This document shows, in pieces, positions 38,188 through 57,452 of a DNA stretch of 64,000 nt. The notes below the pieces were generated by a model. It made no database searches and was not told the origin of the DNA. It saw nothing but the letters and a program-made list of their open reading frames with translations. The translations under genes and the position numbers were made by a program. Source of the stretch: Hyphomicrobium sp. (GTDB taxonomy: Bacteria; Pseudomonadota; Alphaproteobacteria; Rhizobiales; Hyphomicrobiaceae); assembly GCA_022843145.1 (NCBI GenBank), contig JALHOF010000010.1:124001-188000 (forward strand), in the 5' to 3' direction. Each line of letters starts with the position of its first letter. The first letter of the stretch is position 1.

Positions 38188-38360
38188 GTGCCGAAGGTCC
38201 TGTTCTGCTATGTTCGGCGGATGGGAGCCGCCCCTTGCGCCCGACCGGCCCGAGGGCGTCCAGGAAGCACTGTCCCATTACACGGGACACGCCCTCCCGT
38301 TGCGCTCCAAAGTCGCCGAAAGCCCGATCGAATATGGAACTTACACAAAAAATCGCCGTG

Positions 38361-38389
38361 CAATCCAATTCCGAAGCCCCCCCGTATGA
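38361..38389 (+). promoter_or_regulatory. Possible RpoE-type promoter of the sigma factor gene
   Basis: CAATCC, an 18-nt spacer and TATGA. The spacing and three-base ATCC core equal those of the strong candidate at 44625-44653. The implied start point leaves a ~15-nt leader with GAGGG before the ATG at 38414. Weak on its own; autoregulation is usual for RpoE-ChrR. Confidence 0.35.
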
Positions 38390-38413
38390 TTTCCAAACGG
38401 GTGAGGGCCGCGC

Positions 38414-39019
38414 ATGGTGCAGCTTGCAAGCTACTCGGGTGTTCCAGTCTCGGTGTGTGCGCACACCATGACGCGCAGCGCTTCGATGAATGAACTCCTG
38501 CAACGCGTCGCCTCTGGCGGCGACGCGGAGGCGTATCGGAAGCTGTTCCAGTCGTATGCGCCGCGCGTCAAGTCATACATGATCCGACAAGGCGCAGATG
38601 CAGGGACCGCGGAAGAGCTTGCCCAGGAAACGCTGCTGACGGTGTGGCGCAAGGCGGCGCTCTACTCGGGCGAAAAGGGTAGTGCGACGACGTGGATCTT
38701 CACCATCGCGCGTAATCTGCGTATCGACCGGCTGCGGCGCGAGGTGCCGTGGCAGGAATTGCCCGATGGACACGATGAGGAAGCCTCGACGGATGTCCCG
38801 CCCGACGAGCAACTGTCGGACAAGGAACGAAGTGCCCGCGTTCAAGCTGCATTGGCGGAGCTGCCGCCGGACCAGCACGAGGTCGTAGTGCTGTCGTACA
38901 TCGAAGGTCTGTCCCACAGCGAAATCGCCGAGAAGTTGGGTGTACCGCTCGGTACCGTGAAATCCCGCATGCGCCTTGCCTATCAGAAGGTGCGCGAGTC
39001 CGTCGAGGATCTGGCATAA
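38414..39019 (+). CDS. rpoE: ECF sigma factor, RpoE of the RpoE-ChrR type
   Basis: 201 residues. Region 2 (LFQSYAPRVKSYMIRQ, AEELAQETLLTVWRKA, TTWIFTIARNLRIDRLR) and region 4 (LPPDQHEVVVLSYIEGLSHSEIAEKLGVPLGTVKSRMRLAYQKVR) are complete, with no extra domains. The partner downstream is a ChrR-type anti-sigma, starting one base after the stop, so this is the singlet-oxygen-responsive ECF group. GAGGG six bases before the ATG at 38414 favours this start; the ATG at 38468 would remove 18 residues and fits homologue lengths. Confidence 0.93.
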   Translation: MVQLASYSGVPVSVCAHTMTRSASMNELLQRVASGGDAEAYRKLFQSYAPRVKSYMIRQGADAGTAEELAQETLLTVWRKAALYSGEKGSATTWIFTIARNLRIDRLRREVPWQELPDGHDEEASTDVPPDEQLSDKERSARVQAALAELPPDQHEVVVLSYIEGLSHSEIAEKLGVPLGTVKSRMRLAYQKVRESVEDLA

Positions 39020-39020
39020 C

Positions 39021-39677
39021 ATGACGATCAAATTCCACCCCGATTCCGCAACGCTGATGAGCTTCGCTTCCGGCAGTCTGGGCGAGGCACTCAGCGCCGT
39101 CGTCGCCGCGCACGTCGAGATGTGTCCGCGCTGTGCGGCAGAGGCACGGCGCATGGAGCGCATCGGCGCGGCGATGTTCGAGCAGCTCGCGCCGACGCCG
39201 ATGTCGAGCGCGGCCGAGCCTACCGCGGCACTCCAGACGATGACCAAGGAGCGGCCCGCCCGCGCAGCCAACCGCGACGAGGACACTGACGCCGACATGC
39301 CGCGAACGCTGCGGAAGATCGCGGGCCCGGAACTCGACCGCGTGCCGTGGCGCCGGATCGGCATCGGCGTCTGGCATTATCCGCTGCCGCTCTCGCCGGG
39401 CGCCAAGGGAGATCTGCGGCTTCTCAAGGTCGCACCGGGCCAGGCGATGCCGGAACACGGACACGGCGGCGCCGAACTCACGTTGCTGCTGCGCGGCAGC
39501 TATCGCGACGAAATCGGGACGTTCCAGACGGGCGATCTCGCCGATCTCGACGACGACGTCGAACACCGCCCGGTGGCCGATCTCCAAGACGGTTGCATCT
39601 GTCTGATCGCCAGCGAAGAGAAGGCGAAGTTCCGCGGCCTCATGGCGCGGCTTTTCCAGCCACTGACTGGGTTCTGA
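39021..39677 (+). CDS. chrR: ChrR-family zinc-binding anti-sigma factor
   Basis: 218 residues. The N-terminal anti-sigma domain has H6, H31, C35 and C38 (AHVEMCPRCA), the very positions of the zinc ligands in Rhodobacter sphaeroides ChrR. The C-terminal cupin has H146, H148, E152 (PEHGHGGAELTLLL) and H182 (VEHRP), matching the second metal site with a constant +5 offset. The protein would hold RpoE in the cytosol and release it on singlet oxygen or organic peroxide. It begins 1 bp after rpoE. Confidence 0.95.
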   Translation: MTIKFHPDSATLMSFASGSLGEALSAVVAAHVEMCPRCAAEARRMERIGAAMFEQLAPTPMSSAAEPTAALQTMTKERPARAANRDEDTDADMPRTLRKIAGPELDRVPWRRIGIGVWHYPLPLSPGAKGDLRLLKVAPGQAMPEHGHGGAELTLLLRGSYRDEIGTFQTGDLADLDDDVEHRPVADLQDGCICLIASEEKAKFRGLMARLFQPLTGF

Positions 39678-39700
39678 CGTCCCCGGCCCTGAAAGGACGC

Positions 39701-40474
39701 ATGAAACCTTCCGTTCCCTGGTCGTCCGTTTGGATCACTGGCGCGAGTTCCGGCATCGGCCGTGACGTTGCCGTGAAACTCGCGGGCCGAGGCGCGCGCG
39801 TGACGGTTTCGGCGCGGTCGGCCGATGCGCTTTCCATGCTCGCCGCGCAGCAGTCGCGGATCACGGCCGCGCCGCTCGACGTGACCGACCGGGCTGCGAC
39901 GGGCCTGGTTGTCGCCGGCATCGAAAGTGCGCAAGGCCCGCTCGACCTCGTGATCCTGAATGCGGGTGTCTGGCAGCCGATGGGCGCGTCAGGCTTCGAT
40001 GCTTCCAAATCCGCGCAGTCGATGGCGGTCAACTATATCGGGATCGCCAACGCGCTCGAACACGTCATCCCGTTGATGGTTGCGCGCGGCCGCGGGCATA
40101 TTGCTTTGACTGCTTCCGTCGCCGGATACCGGGGACTGCCGCAGGCGTCCGCGTATGCGCCGAGCAAGGCTGCGGTAATCAGCCTAGCCGAGACGCTGAA
40201 GCCGGACCTCGCGCGCAAAGGCGTGACCGTGAGCGTGATCAATCCGGGCTTCGTCGACACCCCGATGACCGAAGTCAACCATTTCCCGATGCCGTTCCTG
40301 ATGCCGGCGGACAAGGCCGCCGATGCGATCATTGCCGGCCTCGAGAAGGGCAAGTTCGACATCGTATTTCCGTGGCAGATGGCGGCGCTGATGAAGTTCG
40401 CGCGCGTGCTGCCGTATCCAGCCTACTTCTGGTTCGCGCGGACGTTCATGACGCCGAAAAAGCCGCAGGGCTGA
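39701..40474 (+). CDS. Short-chain dehydrogenase/reductase (classical SDR)
   Basis: 257 residues. Cofactor motif TGASSGIG at the N-terminus, NAG in LVILNAGVW, catalytic Ser in ALTASVAGYRG and YxxxK as YAPSKAA. The motif R-S-A-R at the first turn suggests NADP(H). It follows chrR by 23 bp with AAAGGA before its ATG, so it is likely the third gene of the rpoE operon. An SDR is a frequent companion in these stress loci; the substrate is unknown, perhaps a fatty aldehyde or ketone. The C-terminus has a hydrophobic anchor-like stretch. Confidence 0.9.
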   Translation: MKPSVPWSSVWITGASSGIGRDVAVKLAGRGARVTVSARSADALSMLAAQQSRITAAPLDVTDRAATGLVVAGIESAQGPLDLVILNAGVWQPMGASGFDASKSAQSMAVNYIGIANALEHVIPLMVARGRGHIALTASVAGYRGLPQASAYAPSKAAVISLAETLKPDLARKGVTVSVINPGFVDTPMTEVNHFPMPFLMPADKAADAIIAGLEKGKFDIVFPWQMAALMKFARVLPYPAYFWFARTFMTPKKPQG

Positions 40475-40486
40475 ACAGCGCGCCCG

Positions 40487-41032
40487 TCACGCGGCGCGGC
40501 GTTCAGAGCCGGCAAGGTCCGCGCCCGCAGCTTTGCCAGGACGCCGCTCGAACAGCATCGTCAGTTCGCCGAGCCGGACGCCGAACTTGCTGACCGTCGC
40601 ACGGTTGATGATGCGATCACCGTCGATCGGATAGAAGCGGTCGTCGAAATCCACGACGACGGAACGGCCCTTGATGGCGAGGCGGAACTGATAGCGCATC
40701 CGGGCACCACCGGCCTCGGCGCGGCCCTCGGCCTGACCGATGACATCGGTGGCCGTGGCATGGAACGCGCCACCTTCGCCGCGCTCGAATTTCCATTGCC
40801 GCTGTTCGACAGCGCCATCGTCGAAACGAAACTCCTCGTCGATCACGAAATGTGACCCGTCGCGGCGTCCAGCGAGATCGGCGACGAACCGGCGGCGCAC
40901 GCGGCCCGCACGATCCTCGAACACGCCCCAGGCGCGGACCGAGCCGTCGAGGTAGGCGATGAGATCGAATGCACCGTCGTTGTTACGCAGAACGGCGGGC
41001 GTGGAATTGGACTCATGCGGCGGGGAGGTCAT
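40487..41032 (-). CDS. DUF3833 family protein
   Basis: 181 residues. Lipocalin-like beta strands (FDLIAYLDGSVRAWGVFEDRAG, WKFERGEGGAFHATATDVIGQAEG, MRYQFRLAIKGRSVVVDFDDRFYPID) fit the DUF3833 family that accompanies CFA-synthase operons. No signal peptide is visible, unusual for a family often exported. The start ATG overlaps the stop of the CFA-like gene (ATGA), and it is the last gene of the four-gene operon. Function is not known; lipid binding is possible. Confidence 0.85.
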   Translation of the reverse strand: MTSPPHESNSTPAVLRNNDGAFDLIAYLDGSVRAWGVFEDRAGRVRRRFVADLAGRRDGSHFVIDEEFRFDDGAVEQRQWKFERGEGGAFHATATDVIGQAEGRAEAGGARMRYQFRLAIKGRSVVVDFDDRFYPIDGDRIINRATVSKFGVRLGELTMLFERRPGKAAGADLAGSERRAA

Positions 41033-42306
41033 GGTCGAGCTCCTTGTTCGAGCGGACGCTCCAGACGGAAAAGCCCAACGTCGATCGCGCCGCGCTCGAA
41101 CCCGACTTCGCAGTACGTCAGATAGTAGAGCCACATTTTGCGGAAGCGCTCGTCGAAGCCCAGCGCTGCGATCTCGGGCCAAGCGCGCTCGAACCGGGCG
41201 CGCCATTCGCGCAGCGTGATGGCGTAGCTTGCCGCGAACGTCTCGACCGGCACGAAGGCAAGCCCGGCGGCGGCGGCCTCGCGGCGCATCGTCTCGACCG
41301 TCGGCAGCATCCCGCCAGGGAAGATGTAGGCCTGGATGAAGTCAGGCTTGCGGCGATAGCGCGCGAACCGCGCCTCGTCGATGGTGATGGCTTGGATCAC
41401 GGCGCTGCCGCCCGGCCTGAGCCGATCATGGAGGGTGGAGAAGTAGCGCGGCCAATGCTCTTCACCCACGGCCTCGATCATCTCGATCGATACGATATGG
41501 TCGAACGTGCCCTTTGCGTCGCGATAGTCCTCGATACGCAACGACGTGCGGTCGGCAAGACCAGCCGCGGCGAGACGGTCGCGCGAATAGTCGTACTGCG
41601 CGCGCGACAGCGTGAGGCCAGTGACGGCATGACCCGCTCGCGCGGCGGCTTCGGCAAAACTGCCCCAGCCAAATCCGATCTCGAGAATCGACGACGCGGA
41701 CCGCGGGCCGCCCGTCTCAGGCGCGAGAGCGTGGAGAACGGCATCGATCTTCGCCGCCTGCGCGGCTTCGAGCGTCATGGCAGGATCGCGGTAGAGCGCG
41801 CTTGAATAGGTCATGCTGGCGTCGAGCCAGTGGCGGTAGAATTCGTTGCCGAGATCGTAGTGGGCGGAAATGTTGCGGCGGCTGCCGGCCTTCGAATTCG
41901 CGCGGAGCCTGTGGGCGATGCGGTCGGGCATGCGGACGCCGAAGAGACCGCGGCCAGCGCTGTCTAGATGCGGGCGGTTGTCGAGGAAGAAGCGGAACAG
42001 CTCGCCCAGGTCCCGCGTCTCGAACTCGCCGCGCATGTAGCTTTCACCGAGGCCGATCGAGCCGCGCCGGACCGCGCGCCAGAACGGCGCGAACGAGTGC
42101 AGCGTGAGTGACGCCTCGATCCCGTCGGATGCGCCCAGAACCTGTGAGCGACCCGATGGCAATTGCAGCCTGACGCGGCCTCGCGGCGTGCGTGCCAGCA
42201 TCCGCGCAGCGGCCTTGAGGATGAGAGCGTCTCCCGCCCGGCCGAGCGTGCTCACGAACGGCACGGGACGCCGCACAGATCCGGCGACGGCGCAGTCGTC
42301 AGCCAT
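41029..42306 (-). CDS. Cyclopropane-fatty-acyl-phospholipid synthase family methyltransferase
   Basis: 425 residues from the ATG at 42306. The N-terminal lipid-binding domain leads into RNISAHYDLGNEFYRHWLD, SMTYSSALY, and the SAM site ILEIGFGWGSFAEAAARAGH, then YRDAKGTFDHIVSIEMIEAVGEEHW and FIQAYIFPGGMLPT, all family hallmarks. It methylates unsaturated phospholipid acyl chains. In R. sphaeroides, homologues in the RpoE regulon are linked to furan- or cyclopropane-fatty acids. A GTG start at 42411 overlapping DUF1365 is possible; the choice is uncertain. Confidence 0.92.
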   Translation of the reverse strand: MADDCAVAGSVRRPVPFVSTLGRAGDALILKAAARMLARTPRGRVRLQLPSGRSQVLGASDGIEASLTLHSFAPFWRAVRRGSIGLGESYMRGEFETRDLGELFRFFLDNRPHLDSAGRGLFGVRMPDRIAHRLRANSKAGSRRNISAHYDLGNEFYRHWLDASMTYSSALYRDPAMTLEAAQAAKIDAVLHALAPETGGPRSASSILEIGFGWGSFAEAAARAGHAVTGLTLSRAQYDYSRDRLAAAGLADRTSLRIEDYRDAKGTFDHIVSIEMIEAVGEEHWPRYFSTLHDRLRPGGSAVIQAITIDEARFARYRRKPDFIQAYIFPGGMLPTVETMRREAAAAGLAFVPVETFAASYAITLREWRARFERAWPEIAALGFDERFRKMWLYYLTYCEVGFERGAIDVGLFRLERPLEQGARP

Positions 42307-42385
42307 GCCTTCGCGCCTCGCCATGTCGTGTGCTGTCAGGTTATGGCCCGTCACTGCCCACTCGCTTGCTGGAATGCCAAACAGA

Positions 42386-43231
42386 TCATCGTGCAGGCAC
42401 CTCGCCAGCACCGTCCCCCGCAGGACCCTTACCCGTCCGGGCCTTGCTCACTGAGTAACGAGCCGAGCGGTGCCTTCGGACCACTGGAATCCCCTTCCAC
42501 CAGAGTTTCGCAGCTTCGATGTGGATCGCAGCGATGACTTTGAGCGTCAGCAAGGGATACGTCAGAGCGAACCACGCGAGTTGCCGGTCGGTCAGCGGAA
42601 CGCGGTGGCCCTTGAACATGGTCTTGAGCAGCGGGCCATCGTCGTCGCGGAGGGTAACCGCCACGACGAGATCGCCGGCTGGCGCGGTGACGCGGAAGGC
42701 GTAGTTTCCCGTGCCGGCGGTGAAGGGTGAAACAGCCATCTCCTTGGTGCAGGCCTGTGCATGAACCTCGGCGGCGGGATCGGCGATCGGAACGACGTAG
42801 CTCTTGCGCTCGCCGAAGGTGTTGTTGACCTCATAAATCGTCGCCACGAGGCGATCCGACCCGTCATAGGCGTAGATCACGCTCAGCGGGTTGAAGACGT
42901 AACCGAGCACGCGGGGATAGCAGAGCATCAAGATTCGGCCGCCAGCGACGGAGACACCGCAGCGCGCGAGTGCGGCGCGATAATGCGCGGAGGCTGATGT
43001 GCCGTCGCCTGGACCGTGGTCGCGGTCGTGGAAGCTGTAGAGGTTCCAGCGGTTCCACGAGAACAACCAGAGCCGCCCATCGAGATCGTGCAACCGGTCG
43101 AGATCGACCAGCATCGAGAAGACGCCGTAGGACAGCGCGTGCGGCTTCGGACGCAAGCGCTTGTGTGAGACGGTGCCGGGATAGAGCGCGCCAGACGCGT
43201 CTCCGGTCGTGGCGGCATGATGACCGGTCAT
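42386..43231 (-). CDS. DUF1365 family protein
   Basis: 281 residues. Family markers: ALYPGTVSHKRLRPKPHALSY, FSMLVDLDRL, CYPRVLGYVFNPLSVIYAYDGSDRLVATIYEVNNTFGERKSYVVP and FRVTAPAGDLVVAVTL. The gene is overlapped at its start by the FAD-oxidoreductase gene (ATGA) and lies before the CFA-like gene. It always travels with these two families, so it presumably handles a lipid step, but the chemistry is not established. The ATG is set by the overlap. Confidence 0.9.
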   Translation of the reverse strand: MTGHHAATTGDASGALYPGTVSHKRLRPKPHALSYGVFSMLVDLDRLHDLDGRLWLFSWNRWNLYSFHDRDHGPGDGTSASAHYRAALARCGVSVAGGRILMLCYPRVLGYVFNPLSVIYAYDGSDRLVATIYEVNNTFGERKSYVVPIADPAAEVHAQACTKEMAVSPFTAGTGNYAFRVTAPAGDLVVAVTLRDDDGPLLKTMFKGHRVPLTDRQLAWFALTYPLLTLKVIAAIHIEAAKLWWKGIPVVRRHRSARYSVSKARTGKGPAGDGAGEVPAR

Positions 43232-44598
43232 GCCGCAGCCTCGGCCGGATCGGCCATGCGGGGCGCGCTCGACGTTGTGATCCGGCTGGATTGGCCTGCG
43301 ACCGACCACGGACGGCGCACGCCCCCGCCGCCGGCAGCGGCTCCATGGCCAGATGCGCTCATGTCCTCGGCAGCGGCAAGTCCCGCCTGCAAACCGTCCT
43401 CGTGAAAGCCCCAACCGAAATAGCTGCCCGCGAACCAAACGTTGCCGCGGCCTTGCAGCGACCACAGCCGCGACTGCGCTGCGATGGCCGCACCGTCATA
43501 CATCGGGTGGCGATACGCGAAACTCGCGATCGTCTGGGACGCGGGGATCTCGGTCGCGGGATTGAGCGTGACGAAGTGATCGGACCGCGTTGTCAAAGGC
43601 TGCAGGCGGTTCATCCAGTAACTCACCGTCAACTCGCCGTCGGGGCCGCCCATGTAGTTCCAGCTCGACCACAACCGCCTGCGGCGCGGCATCTGACGGA
43701 GATCGCGATGGAGGACCGCGAGGTTATCTGAGTAACGAAACGCGCCGAGCACCGTGCGTTCCGTGGCATCCGGATTGCCCAAGAGCGCAAGCGCATCGTC
43801 GGCATGGCACGCGATCAGGCAGCGGTCGAACCGCTCGATCGCGCCGCTTTCGCGCGTGATAACCACATCGCCACCGCCGCGCGCGACCGACACGACGGCG
43901 TCGCCGCTGATCGTCTTGCCCCGATAGCCGGCCATCAGCCGCGCCACGTATTCGCGGCTGCCGCCGTCGACCGTGCGCCACTCGGGCCGGTTGCGAACCT
44001 GCAGCAGCCCATGATTGGCGAAGAAGCGCGCGAACGCGGCGGCGGGGAAATCGAGAATACCGCGCGACGGCGTCGACCAGATCGCGGCCCCCATCGGCAG
44101 GATGTGACGCTCGACGAAGTCGCGGCTGTAGCTGTGCGAGTTGAGCCATTCGCCGAGCGAGACGCCCGCGTCCGCATCGCGAGGCGTCTCGGCGAGAAGC
44201 GCCGGCGCCTCGCGAAAGAAACGCAGGATGTCGGCGGCCATGCGCCAATGACCGGGGCGCAGGAGATTGGACGGCTGGCCAAACAGTCCTTGCGCGCCGG
44301 TGCCGGAATACTCGTAGCCGCCGCCGTCGAGCGACACGGCGAAGCTCATGTCGGTCCGCGCCGTAGGAACGGCGAGATGCTCGAAGAGCGCAATCAGATT
44401 GGGATAGCAGGCGGTGTTGTAGACGATGAACCCGGTGTCGACAGGGCCGCTGCCGCCCTCCGGCCACGTGACCTCGGACGTGTTGCTGTGACCGCCGAGA
44501 CGGGGCTCACGCTCGAACAGCGTCACGTCGTGCGCCCGGGACAAGAGCCACGCCGCGCCGAGCCCCGAGATGCCCGCTCCGACCACCGCTATGCGCAC
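43228..44598 (-). CDS. FAD-dependent oxidoreductase, flavin amine oxidase-like
   Basis: 456 residues. FAD fold VRIAVVGAGISGLGAAWLLS, then FEREPRLGGHSNT, and the C-terminal FAGSYFGWGFHEDGLQAGLAAAE. It belongs to the group found with CFA synthase, DUF1365 and DUF3833 in many bacteria, and may desaturate or oxidise fatty chains. GTG start at 44598, preceded by GGGGAGG. It is the first gene of the minus-strand operon, 26 bp behind the predicted RpoE promoter. The last ~35 residues are low-complexity. Confidence 0.9.
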   Translation of the reverse strand: MRIAVVGAGISGLGAAWLLSRAHDVTLFEREPRLGGHSNTSEVTWPEGGSGPVDTGFIVYNTACYPNLIALFEHLAVPTARTDMSFAVSLDGGGYEYSGTGAQGLFGQPSNLLRPGHWRMAADILRFFREAPALLAETPRDADAGVSLGEWLNSHSYSRDFVERHILPMGAAIWSTPSRGILDFPAAAFARFFANHGLLQVRNRPEWRTVDGGSREYVARLMAGYRGKTISGDAVVSVARGGGDVVITRESGAIERFDRCLIACHADDALALLGNPDATERTVLGAFRYSDNLAVLHRDLRQMPRRRRLWSSWNYMGGPDGELTVSYWMNRLQPLTTRSDHFVTLNPATEIPASQTIASFAYRHPMYDGAAIAAQSRLWSLQGRGNVWFAGSYFGWGFHEDGLQAGLAAAEDMSASGHGAAAGGGGVRRPWSVAGQSSRITTSSAPRMADPAEAAA

Positions 44599-44624
44599 GC
44601 GACCTCCCCTCGTCTGACGGTTAA

Positions 44625-44653
44625 GTCTACGCCTCAAAGCGCCACACGGATCA
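44625..44653 (-). promoter_or_regulatory. RpoE-type promoter of the CFA operon
   Basis: On the minus strand: TGATCC, 18 nt, TAGAC. TGATCC is the -35 element of RpoE (ChrR-controlled) promoters in Rhodobacter, and the spacing and TA-start of the -10 fit. The GTG start lies 26 bases after the -10 end, with an ideal RBS in between. Confidence 0.75.
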
Positions 44654-44873
44654 GATCGGACGGCCCAATTGGCGCGGCGGCGGCGGCAACGAATCGTCAA
44701 CAGGCGTTACCAGCGCGCTAATCTTAAGGCCGCGTTAACCAGTCCTGCGGCATTCTTACTGCATCGGCCATCGCGCTCTCTCCCAATCCCGCAAGCGATC
44801 GCGGCGGCAGAAAAGAACGAAGCAAAAGCTGACCTACCCACCACACCGTCAAGTTTGGACAAGAGGTCGTACG

Positions 44874-45104
44874 ATGTCTGTTGAACTCGTTTTGCGTGCC
44901 ATCACACATCTCACTCTCTTTACAACCATGTGCCTGCTCGGCACCGGCACAATCGTCGCCGGCGTCAATGCAGCCAACCTCCGCACTCAGCCACTGTGCA
45001 GCCACGGCGGTTGCGCCGTGGTCCATGCACACGACTACAACGGCCTCAACAGCCCCGAGCACATCCGGGCCGTCTCCGCCGTGTTGTGGAAGTCGAAGGC
45101 CTGA
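44874..45104 (+). CDS. Small exported or membrane protein, unknown function
   Basis: 76 residues. A hydrophobic N-terminal helix (LRAITHLTLFTTMCLLGTGT then IVAGV) could be a signal or anchor, followed by a His/Cys-containing tail (RTQPLCSHGGCAVVHAHDY, a CxxxxC pair with histidines). GAGG precedes the ATG. The metal-type cluster of Cys and His is noteworthy but unproven. No family recognised; it may be a chance ORF. Confidence 0.5.
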   Translation: MSVELVLRAITHLTLFTTMCLLGTGTIVAGVNAANLRTQPLCSHGGCAVVHAHDYNGLNSPEHIRAVSAVLWKSKA

Positions 45105-45284
45105 CGCCCGTCGCATGCGTTGCGACGTCGGCGTGAAACTGGGGTCGGGCGGCCGTGACCCGCACCGTGACGCCCGATCCCGATAAGCCGAAACCCGGCC
45201 TCATGAGCACCGGGACCAGCACCGCGAACTGAACCACAGCCACGGAGGTCCGTTCGACCTGTCACCGACATGTGCCGACGTCAA

Positions 45285-45315
45285 CGAGGAGCGCGCGGAG
45301 CCCGCTCCTCTTTTG
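45285..45315 (+). terminator. Probable terminator after the small exported-protein gene
   Basis: AGGAGCG and CGCTCCT arms around GCGGAGCC, followed by CTTTT. Plus-strand polarity, 180 bp after the small gene and just before the end of the convergent kdsA. Confidence 0.6.
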
Positions 45316-45329
45316 CGTCGAGTGGCCGG

Positions 45330-46187
45330 TCAGCGCGCGGTGATGCGCTTTGCGACCACGTCGATGGCTTGCAGATCGGCCATCAACGCCTCGAACTGCG
45401 ACAGCGGCATCATGTTGGGACCGTCGGACGGGGCATTGTCGGGGTCCTGGTGGGTTTCGATGAAGAGACCCGCGACGCCGACTGCCACGGCAGCCCGCGC
45501 CAGCACCGGCACGTAACGCCTGTCGCCACCCGAGGATGTCCCCTGCCCGCCCGGCTGCTGCACCGAATGCGTGGCGTCGAAGATCACCGGACAGCCCGTC
45601 TCGGCCATGATCGGCAGCGAGCGCATATCGACAACGAGCGTGTTGTAGCCAAAGCTCGCGCCGCGCTCGGTCAACAAGATGTTGGGATTGCCAGAGCCGG
45701 CGATCTTGGCGACCGCGTTCTTCATGTCCCACGGCGCGAGGAACTGGCCCTTCTTGATCTTGATCACCTTGCCGGTTGCGGCGGCGGCGATCAGCAGGTC
45801 TGTCTGCCGACACAGAAAAGCGGGGATCTGCAGCACGTCCACGGCTTCGGCGACGGCGGCGCATTGGCTCGCCTCGTGCACGTCGGTGACGACCGGAAGG
45901 CCGAGACTTTCGCGGATCTCGGCAAACACCGGCAGCGCGCCCTGTAGTCCGATGCCGCGCTTGCCGCCGAGCGATGTGCGGTTGGCTTTATCGAAGCTCG
46001 ACTTGTACACGAGCCCGAGCCCGAGCCGGCCGCATATCTCCTTGAGGGCGGACGCCATTTCGAGGGCGTGCTGCCGGCTCTCCATCTGGCAGGGGCCGGC
46101 AAAGACGACGATCGGCAGATCGTTGCCGAGCGTCAGAGGTCCGATTTGAACGTGAGCGCGCGGCTTGAGGGACTCGATTTTTGTCAT
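45330..46187 (-). CDS. kdsA: 3-deoxy-8-phosphooctulonate (KDO-8-P) synthase
   Basis: 285 residues. Condenses phosphoenolpyruvate with arabinose 5-phosphate to give KDO-8-P for lipopolysaccharide cores. Landmarks: [12 protein letters not shown] (PEP site), [60 protein letters not shown] and [23 protein letters not shown] tRNA-Asp gene lies just upstream on the same strand. Cytosolic; no other kds genes are in the window. Confidence 0.96.
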
Positions 46188-55940: not shown

Positions 55941-57395
55941 TCACGCGATCTTGACCGTCTTCAGTGCGGCGAACGCGGCGAGAGCACGCTCGCGCGCCGC
56001 CGCATGATCGACGATCGGCATGGGGTAGGTACGCCCGAGCTCGATGCCGGTTTCACGCAATAACAATGCGGGCGTGGTCCACGGCTCGTGGATGAGCGGC
56101 GCGGGCAGGCTCGCGAGTTCCGGCACCCAGCGCCGCACATACGCGCCGTCGGGATCGAACTTGATGCCCTGGGTGATGGGATTGAAGATGCGAAAATAGG
56201 GCGCGGCATCGGCGCCGGAGCCGGCCACCCACTGCCAGCTCGCGGCGTTGCTGGCGAGATCGGCGTCGACGAGCGTATCCCAGAACCAGCGCTCTCCCTC
56301 ATGCCAATGGATCATCAGATCCTTGATCAGAAACGAAGCCGTGATCATGCGGACGCGATTGTGCATCCAGCCGGTGGTCCACAGCTCGCGCATCCCCGCG
56401 TCGACGATCGGATAGCCGGTCAGCCCGCGCTGCCAAGCCCGCAGGGCAGACGCATCCTCGCCCCACGCGAAATGCTTGAACTCGGGGCGGAAGGGCGCGC
56501 TCGGCAGATCCGGCCAGTGAAACAGCAGGTGATAGGAAAACTCCCGCCAGACGAGTTCCTTCAGAAAGGTCTCGAGGCCCTTCTCGGCGTGCGGACGGCC
56601 CGCCGCGGCGGCGCGGGCGCGATGCCAGCACAGCGCCGGTGAGATCTCGCCGAAATGCAGATGCGGCGACAGTCGCGACGTGCCGACGATATCGGGGCGG
56701 TTGCGATCGGCGGCGTACTCGTCGAGCGCGGTATCGAGGAATGTATCGAGCCGCTCGACCGCACCCGCTTCACCGGGCCGCCAGGCGGCCGAGAACCCCT
56801 TCGACCAATCCGGCTTCTGAGGGTGCAGGCTCCAGTCCGCGAGGCGGTCGCTTTTCGGCGCCTTTTTTACGAACGCGATGTCCACTGGAACCGGCGATGG
56901 CCGGCGCGGCTCACCCAGCGCCACGAGCGCACGCCACATCGGCGTGTAGACTTTGAATGGCTCACCGGCCTTGGTGCGCAACTCCTCCGGCTCGCGCAGC
57001 AGCGCGCCGCCGAACCGCCGGAATGCCACGCCCGCGTCCATCAGCGCGGCGTGCACGCCGTCCTCGAGCCGCCGCGCCCACGGCTCATAGGCGCGCGTCG
57101 CGTAGACCGCGCCAGCGCCCGTCTCTGCGGCGAGTTGGAGAAGCGTCGCGCGCGTGTCGCCGCGACGGAGAACGAGTTTGCCGCCGCGCGCCGCGATCTG
57201 TTCCGAGAGATCGGCGAGGCTCTTGTCCAGCCACCAGCGCGAGGCACCGCCCATGCCCCACTCACCCGCGACCGCATCGTCGAGCACATAGACCGGCAGT
57301 ACCGGCCCGCCAGATGCGGCCGCCGCCTCGAGTGCGCGATTGTCGGTCAGGCGCAAATCCTGGCGCAGCCAGAGGATGATCGGCTTCACAGTCAC
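55941..57395 (-). CDS. phrB: Deoxyribodipyrimidine photolyase (cryptochrome/photolyase family)
   Basis: 484 residues. FAD-dependent, light-driven repair of pyrimidine dimers. Antenna domain LWLRQDLRLTDNRALEAA, then SRLSPHLHFGEISPALCW, KELVWREFSYHLLFHWPDLP, GLTGYPIVDAGMRELWTTGWMHNRVRMITASFLIKDLMIHW and SNAASWQWVAGSGADAAPYFRIFNP, all conserved. GTG at 57395 is chosen since GGAG stands 5 bases upstream; an ATG at 57425 would sit inside the predicted -10 region. Photolyase is often in the RpoE-ChrR regulon. Confidence 0.95.
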   Translation of the reverse strand: MTVKPIILWLRQDLRLTDNRALEAAAASGGPVLPVYVLDDAVAGEWGMGGASRWWLDKSLADLSEQIAARGGKLVLRRGDTRATLLQLAAETGAGAVYATRAYEPWARRLEDGVHAALMDAGVAFRRFGGALLREPEELRTKAGEPFKVYTPMWRALVALGEPRRPSPVPVDIAFVKKAPKSDRLADWSLHPQKPDWSKGFSAAWRPGEAGAVERLDTFLDTALDEYAADRNRPDIVGTSRLSPHLHFGEISPALCWHRARAAAAGRPHAEKGLETFLKELVWREFSYHLLFHWPDLPSAPFRPEFKHFAWGEDASALRAWQRGLTGYPIVDAGMRELWTTGWMHNRVRMITASFLIKDLMIHWHEGERWFWDTLVDADLASNAASWQWVAGSGADAAPYFRIFNPITQGIKFDPDGAYVRRWVPELASLPAPLIHEPWTTPALLLRETGIELGRTYPMPIVDHAAARERALAAFAALKTVKIA

Positions 57396-57423: not shown

Positions 57424-57452
57424 ATTAACGACGCGCACGGCTGTGTGGTTCA
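57424..57452 (-). promoter_or_regulatory. Weak RpoE-like promoter candidate of the photolyase gene
   Basis: On the minus strand TGAACC, 18 nt, TTAAT: one mismatch to TGATCC at -35 and a poor -10. The position, about 30 bp before the preferred GTG start, is reasonable. Without transcript data it should be read as suggestive only. Confidence 0.3.

Follow-up and report, generated by a model that had tools for sequence, protein, structure and literature searches.

In Rhodobacter sphaeroides, the furan fatty acid 9M5-FuFA is made by UfaM (RSP2144), UfaD (RSP1091) and the DUF1365 protein UfaO (RSP1090), RSP1087-1089 being dispensable for this product, and RPA2571, RPA2570 and RPA2569 were reported to have the same role in R. 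palustris (PMC7380195). Turnover of the R. sphaeroides ChrR under singlet oxygen requires RSP_1090 (PMC3818230), for which the synthesis of furan lipids was suggested to supply a messenger (PMC6852236). A further RpoE target of the same bacterium is the photolyase PhrA (PMC7074977). The ChIP-seq consensus of the P. syringae RpoE homologue, TGATCC-N16-CGTA, was described as closely like the motifs of Rhodobacter and Caulobacter (PMC5507510). Concerning the accessory genes, the conservation of RSP_1089, 1088 and 1087 was stated to be restricted to Rhodobacteraceae (PMC3818230), and RSP1087 was counted in a wider core (PMC5507510, citing a core-regulon study of 2008).

The window, i.e., the whole stretch of 64,000 nucleotides analysed here, encodes an ECF sigma factor similar to RpoE and a ChrR in which every metal ligand is present, and it carries ECF11-type sites and a ufaD-ufaO-ufaM-DUF3833 operon. 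On this sequence-level basis it is highly probable that the window contains an entire photooxidative-stress module of the ECF11 (RpoE-ChrR) kind, including its furan fatty acid operon. Related bacteria are known to have this system, of which the window is a well-preserved new example.

Genes of the module and their counterparts in described systems

For a direct comparison, named genomes were searched with the R. sphaeroides RpoE stretch and the best 80 loci were kept. The best among the 80 loci listed, which did not include R. sphaeroides 2.4.1, was that of Luteovulum azotoformans (L137; now Cereibacter azotoformans), with an RpoE 94% identical to the R. sphaeroides query. In this locus, rpoE-chrR is divergent from genes for an FAD protein, DUF1365, a further protein, DUF3833 and an SDR, and the interval separating rpoE from the FAD gene carries one perfect motif per strand. 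The features of the two operons in the window are listed below, with identities to the L137 genes of the same kind.

38361..38386, plus strand: probable rpoE promoter, CAATCC (38361-38366)-N16-CGTA (38383-38386); 8/10 bases, 27 bases before the first ATG
38414..39019, plus strand: rpoE, ECF sigma factor; start also possible at ATG 38468 or 38486
39021..39677, plus strand: chrR, zinc-binding anti-sigma factor; TIGR02451 at 169.7 bits (cut-off 124.5), 2z2s_B at E 4.1e-39
39701..40474, plus strand: SDR oxidoreductase, RSP1087-type; PF00106; 35-36% identity; top match of the L137 operon SDR in the window's genome
40487..41032, minus strand: DUF3833 gene; PF12915, 155.2 bits; 40% identity
41029..42324, minus strand: ufaM-like, CMAS-family methyltransferase with the Ser/Gln signature; PF02353; 48% identity to the sole full-length homologue in the L137 genome
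42386..43231, minus strand: ufaO-like, DUF1365; PF07103, 246.7 bits; 36% identity
43228..44598, minus strand: ufaD-like, amine-oxidase-type FAD oxidoreductase, GTG start; PF01593; 43% identity to the same-position gene
44628..44653, minus strand: ECF11-type promoter of the ufa operon, TGATCC-N16-CGTA; 10/10 bases of the PMC5507510 motif

Ranking first of 24, the nearest solved relative of the sigma factor is 2q1z_A (E 2.2e-34), which belongs to the RpoE-ChrR structure of R. sphaeroides. In ChrR, the zinc ligands of the anti-sigma domain (H6, H31, C35, C38) and the cupin ligands (H146, H148, E152, H182) are all present, the latter corresponding to positions 141, 143, 147 and 177 among the ChrR metal ligands listed in PMC6852236. 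The SDR of the L137 operon matched the window SDR at 142 bits, the next match in the window's genome reaching 64.7. The four minus-strand genes had been described, in a sequence-only reading of this DNA, as each overlapping by four bases or lying close together; the order holds and the FAD/DUF1365 and CFA/DUF3833 pairs share an ATGA, but there is no such overlap between the DUF1365 and CFA genes, which are separated by 61 or 31 bases or overlap by 26, depending on whether the uncertain ufaM start is ATG 42324, GTG 42354 or GTG 42411.

Compared via C. azotoformans, the window shares with the R. sphaeroides RpoE-ChrR system (RSP1091-1087, RSP2144) the sigma factor, the ChrR ligands, the motif and the UfaD, UfaO, UfaM, DUF3833 and SDR kinds of protein; unlike in R. 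sphaeroides, ufaM lies inside the operon, the SDR gene lies behind chrR, no gene occupies the RSP1089 position, and the two operons run towards each other rather than apart. The ufaD-ufaO-ufaM order is shared with R. palustris RPA2571-2570-2569 (PMC7380195), which differs in that R. palustris also forms a dimethyl furan fatty acid via FufM (RPA0924), whereas the window's genome has one full-length CMAS protein, further CMAS matches being partial and below 35 bits. DUF1365 is likewise represented by one protein in this genome. The P. syringae PSPTO_1043 ECF regulon resembles the window in TGATCC-N16-CGTA and in core-regulon orthologues, but its core genes outside the sigma operon are mostly found in one phrB-led locus (PMC5507510), whereas the window photolyases lie apart from the ufa operon. 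In Halomonas sp. YLGW01, ufaM is likewise consecutive with ufaD and ufaO, but RpoE control is not described in the consulted part of PMC12089945. From the low identity to the named Rhodobacterales loci we infer that the window's family is distant from Rhodobacteraceae; if it indeed lies outside them, the SDR and DUF3833 genes of this family would speak for the wider-core view.

Solved sequence relatives of UfaO were not found up to E 1. Its AlphaFold model (mean pLDDT 82.2) is a beta barrel, for which Foldseek returned a single match at E <0.001 (3bdr, a fatty-acid-binding-protein-like barrel) and VIA-align ranked the OlmO spirocyclase first (Z 7.5), ahead of a designed barrel and of nitrobindins, with every Z under 8. 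The likeness to these folds is weak, and a calycin-like barrel is suggested by this model as a lead only. Upstream of the ufa operon lies kdsA (KDO-8-phosphate synthase, 45330-46187), also on the stretch in eight relatives; it is a conserved neighbour of the ufa operon whose function shows no evident connection to it.

Promoter of the ufa operon and its conservation in the family

The minus strand reads TGATCC-N18-TAGAC at 44653-44625, 26 bp before the first gene, exactly as the sequence-only reading had it. Within this stretch the full motif consists of TGATCC at 44653-44648 and CGTA at 44631-44628, 29 bases from the GTG of the FAD gene (44598-44596), which is preceded by a GGGGAGG stretch. 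What stood of the earlier promoter match was the site, its position and the conservation of the full motif, but not the loose TGATCC...TA string, which is at chance level: TGATCC-N17..19-TA was rejected as evidence, with one occurrence in the window against 1.29 expected and at least one in 76 of 100 shuffles. The genome scan for further loose sites that had been suggested was run and turned out uninformative, since its 132 hits (68 forward, 64 reverse) are likewise at chance level.

Simulation with an order-1 Markov model puts the expected number of perfect TGATCC-N16-CGTA sites at 0.07 in 64 kb, and five were found in the 3.93 Mb genome against about four by chance, so that the genome count alone is neither proof nor enrichment. 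Besides the ufa site, one of the five belongs to a DPRP-type photolyase, one lies 123 bases 5' of a 140-aa open frame, and the remaining two are inside longer open stretches. Deriving a regulon from one genome was also rejected, since most of the 220 sites that have no more than one mismatch are background; a reversed-pattern control (16 and 57 sites) was set aside because the pattern contains CTAG or a similar word, which may by itself make it scarce. The non-random part of the promoter evidence is the position of the site together with its conservation 5' of the same gene in relatives.

PF07103 (DUF1365) was present in 51 of the 103 genomes of the window's family. Stretches were taken from 48 of the 50 other genomes, G029 and G088 being omitted for broken or partial matches, which gave 49 loci with the window; these relatives share kinship and are not independent in any of the following counts. 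A first scan scored 47 upstream regions of the FAD gene, after exclusion of L062 (cut off) and L106 (gene absent), and found the motif at 10/10 bases in 14, at 9/10 in 20, at 8/10 in nine, at 7/10 in two (L090, L095) and at 6/10 in two (L069, L102), these last four matching poorly despite the presence of the operon. In a tighter scan from -200 to +40, with spacers from N12 to N20 as control and the window counted in every n, the 46 ufaD upstream regions gave 14 perfect sites at N16, with 33 regions at 9/10 or better and 40 at 8/10 or better, compared with 0-1, 0-1 and 4-11, respectively, at N12-N15 and N17-N20. The rpoE upstream regions, scorable in 30 of the 49 loci, behaved similarly: six perfect, 20 at least 9/10 and 27 at least 8/10 at N16, against none, 0-2 and 2-7 at the other spacers. 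In the gene interiors, from +300 to +540, the N16 sites all stayed below 9/10. On the opposite strand of the same stretches, such sites occurred in 10/46 (ufaD) and 11/30 (rpoE) regions, a raised count that we take to be the neighbour's promoter in divergent loci. Since the 16-base spacers vary widely between most loci, the two boxes stand out as a footprint.

The idea that the motif is fortuitous and that another promoter drives the ufa operon draws on the near-chance number of perfect sites in the genome; the spacer-specific conservation among relatives argues against it, as does the lack of sigma-70-type sites in 38200-45400 (none found, 0.8 expected) in a scan that covered this promoter type alone, and we regard it as extremely unlikely. 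A single weak terminator-like sequence was seen in this region. RpoE control of the ufa operon is thus very likely on sequence grounds, and motif conservation, synteny and orthology give good support both to joint control and to the connection with the singlet-oxygen core of Rhodobacter, as had been read from the window.

Two additions go beyond that earlier reading, namely the rpoE promoter and the photolyase genes. The rpoE site is weak, its 8/10 bases being reached by 20 of 200 shuffles, and is probably genuine in view of its position and the relatives. The photolyase gene of the window, about 11 kb away, is likely to be a further RpoE target, judging from the following site:

55941..57395, minus strand: phr, DNA photolyase, PF00875; probable GTG start at 57395
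57427..57452, minus strand: probable further target site TGAACC-N16-CGTT; 8/10 bases, 31 bases 5' of the phr GTG

Among 31 photolyase upstream regions (the window and the 30 best-scoring relatives that came back as loci, of 74 genomes with a match), six had a site of at least 9/10 and 18 of at least 8/10 at N16, against 0-1 and 2-7 at other spacers. The DPRP-type photolyase gene elsewhere in the genome has its perfect site 61 bases upstream. This site is poorly conserved in relatives overall: nine of 30 loci, the window's genome included, reached at least 9/10 (none at other spacers), six of the nine being near-identical and from one clade, and the two same-genus loci showed 8/10. For rpoH, with three matches in the window's genome and one above the cut-off, no site of at least 9/10 that would point to an RpoHII-type cascade was found by the two best matches, on either strand of loci of roughly 3.7 kb.

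UfaM and the product of the operon

We aligned 50 UfaM-type sequences (the window, 48 from the family and one from C. azotoformans; label given at 38% identity or more, one 104-aa fragment left out) with the aligned stretches of three solved CFA synthases and with ten distant second copies. Where E. coli Cfa has His266, Gln is present in 50/50 UfaM-type sequences and His in 3/3 CFA synthases and 10/10 second copies. At Cys139, a catalytic position like Ile268, Ser is found in 50/50 UfaM-type sequences and Cys in 3/3 CFA synthases, the second copies having four Ser and six Cys. Glu239 and Ile268 are kept in 50/50 UfaM-type sequences and Tyr317 in 48/50, with a gap in two. Since Glu239, His266 and Tyr317 are the bicarbonate ligands of CFA synthase (PMC11387697), the window protein, which keeps Glu and Tyr and has Gln for His266, lacks the complete set. 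It also scores below three NCBIfam CFA cut-offs (224.9 of 600, 217.8 of 400 and 200.4 of 650 bits).

The sequence-only reading had RpoE driving a cyclopropane fatty acid operon that alters the membrane fatty acids. It is true that the methyltransferase is of the CMAS family, that its best solved relatives are CFA synthases and that cyclic fatty acids were seen in E. coli with ufaM as with cfa, E. coli having its own cfa (PMC12089945). The Gln and Ser substitutions, the scores below the cut-offs and the location of the gene next to ones of the UfaD and UfaO types, arranged as in the proven pathway, argue against this; the 'CFA' label for the operon was given up in favour of the UfaD-UfaO-UfaM furan pathway, and cyclopropane synthesis appears very unlikely. 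It might also be that RpoE control is right but that the product is a different modified lipid, or that the genes cover only part of the furan pathway, as the identity to characterised enzymes is moderate, the furan chemistry is a prediction and a role has yet to be assigned to DUF3833. The pathway enzymes are present as a full set of three, however, and 18 UfaO positions are identical in 124/124 aligned sequences from the window's family and Rhodobacterales loci, which leaves this possibility with little likelihood.

A statement on the Ser/Gln difference of UfaM was not found in the consulted parts of PMC11387697 and PMC12089945 or in a limited literature search, and no priority is claimed. 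With Ser for Cys139 and Gln for His266, annotation gains a two-residue signature by which UfaM may be told apart from cyclopropane synthases.

The SAM-binding motif of the window UfaM is EIGFGWG; its Phe stands at a position that is Cys in 49 of the 50 UfaM-type sequences. A second CMAS-family gene lies near the ufa operon in ten loci (L063, L064, L066, L070, L082, L084, L088, L092, L096 and L097), five of them divergent, five without rpoE nearby and none convergent; these copies are 24-31% identical to the window UfaM, keep His266 and have Phe for Ile268. They might represent FufM-type dimethyl-furan methylases.

Operon layout and proposed mechanism

The ufa operon does converge on rpoE-chrR-SDR, as had been described, the stop codons of the SDR and DUF3833 genes being 12 bases apart. 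The compact face-to-face block is present in the window but is not special to it, as 19 of the 49 family loci are convergent, 13 are divergent and 17 have no rpoE/chrR in the stretch taken, several of these being short contigs. An SDR gene (>45% identity) follows chrR in 18/19 convergent and 0/13 divergent loci. In 17 of these 18, the SDR stop lies 4-144 bases from the last found stop of the facing operon, overlaps being counted as distances; the exception is L107, with stops 690 bases apart and rpoE and ufaM split between frames. This same-genus locus (G091) shows the frame splits in tblastn, and its genome is 76% complete, so that sequencing error is as likely as decay. DUF3833, found by tblastn in 9/19 convergent loci, is accordingly an optional member.

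By analogy with R. sphaeroides and R. palustris, ChrR would hold RpoE inactive until singlet oxygen triggers its destruction, and the freed RpoE would transcribe its own operon and the ufa operon. UfaM would then methylate a cis-vaccenoyl phospholipid, UfaD would desaturate the methylated product, and UfaO would insert oxygen derived from O2, closing the furan ring; the furan fatty acid in the membrane would scavenge singlet oxygen. The need for RSP_1090 and the messenger proposal in R. sphaeroides make the same positive loop likely in the window's organism, i.e., the furan synthesis genes would be needed for ChrR turnover. DUF3833 and the SDR would be co-regulated accessories with no assigned role. 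Counted against the furan module reading were the near-chance number of perfect sites, the 8/10 rpoE site, the four operon loci at 6-7/10, the moderate enzyme identity (36-48% to Cereibacter), the 17/49 loci without rpoE/chrR and the lack of an rpoH site of at least 9/10. The tail-to-tail layout could itself be regulatory, in that the two RpoE-driven transcripts would run into each other across the adjoining or overlapping stop codons, with the one weak terminator-like sequence in the scanned region, and strong RpoE activation would give antisense RNA or colliding polymerases that damp both operons. We consider this very improbable; if true, the positive loop linking ChrR turnover to furan lipid would carry its own brake.

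The likely misreading as a cyclopropane fatty acid operon is thus corrected, one more bacterial family is added to those with the furan fatty acid pathway, and the DUF3833 gene and the RSP1087-type SDR travel with the module in a family seemingly distant from the compared Rhodobacterales loci.
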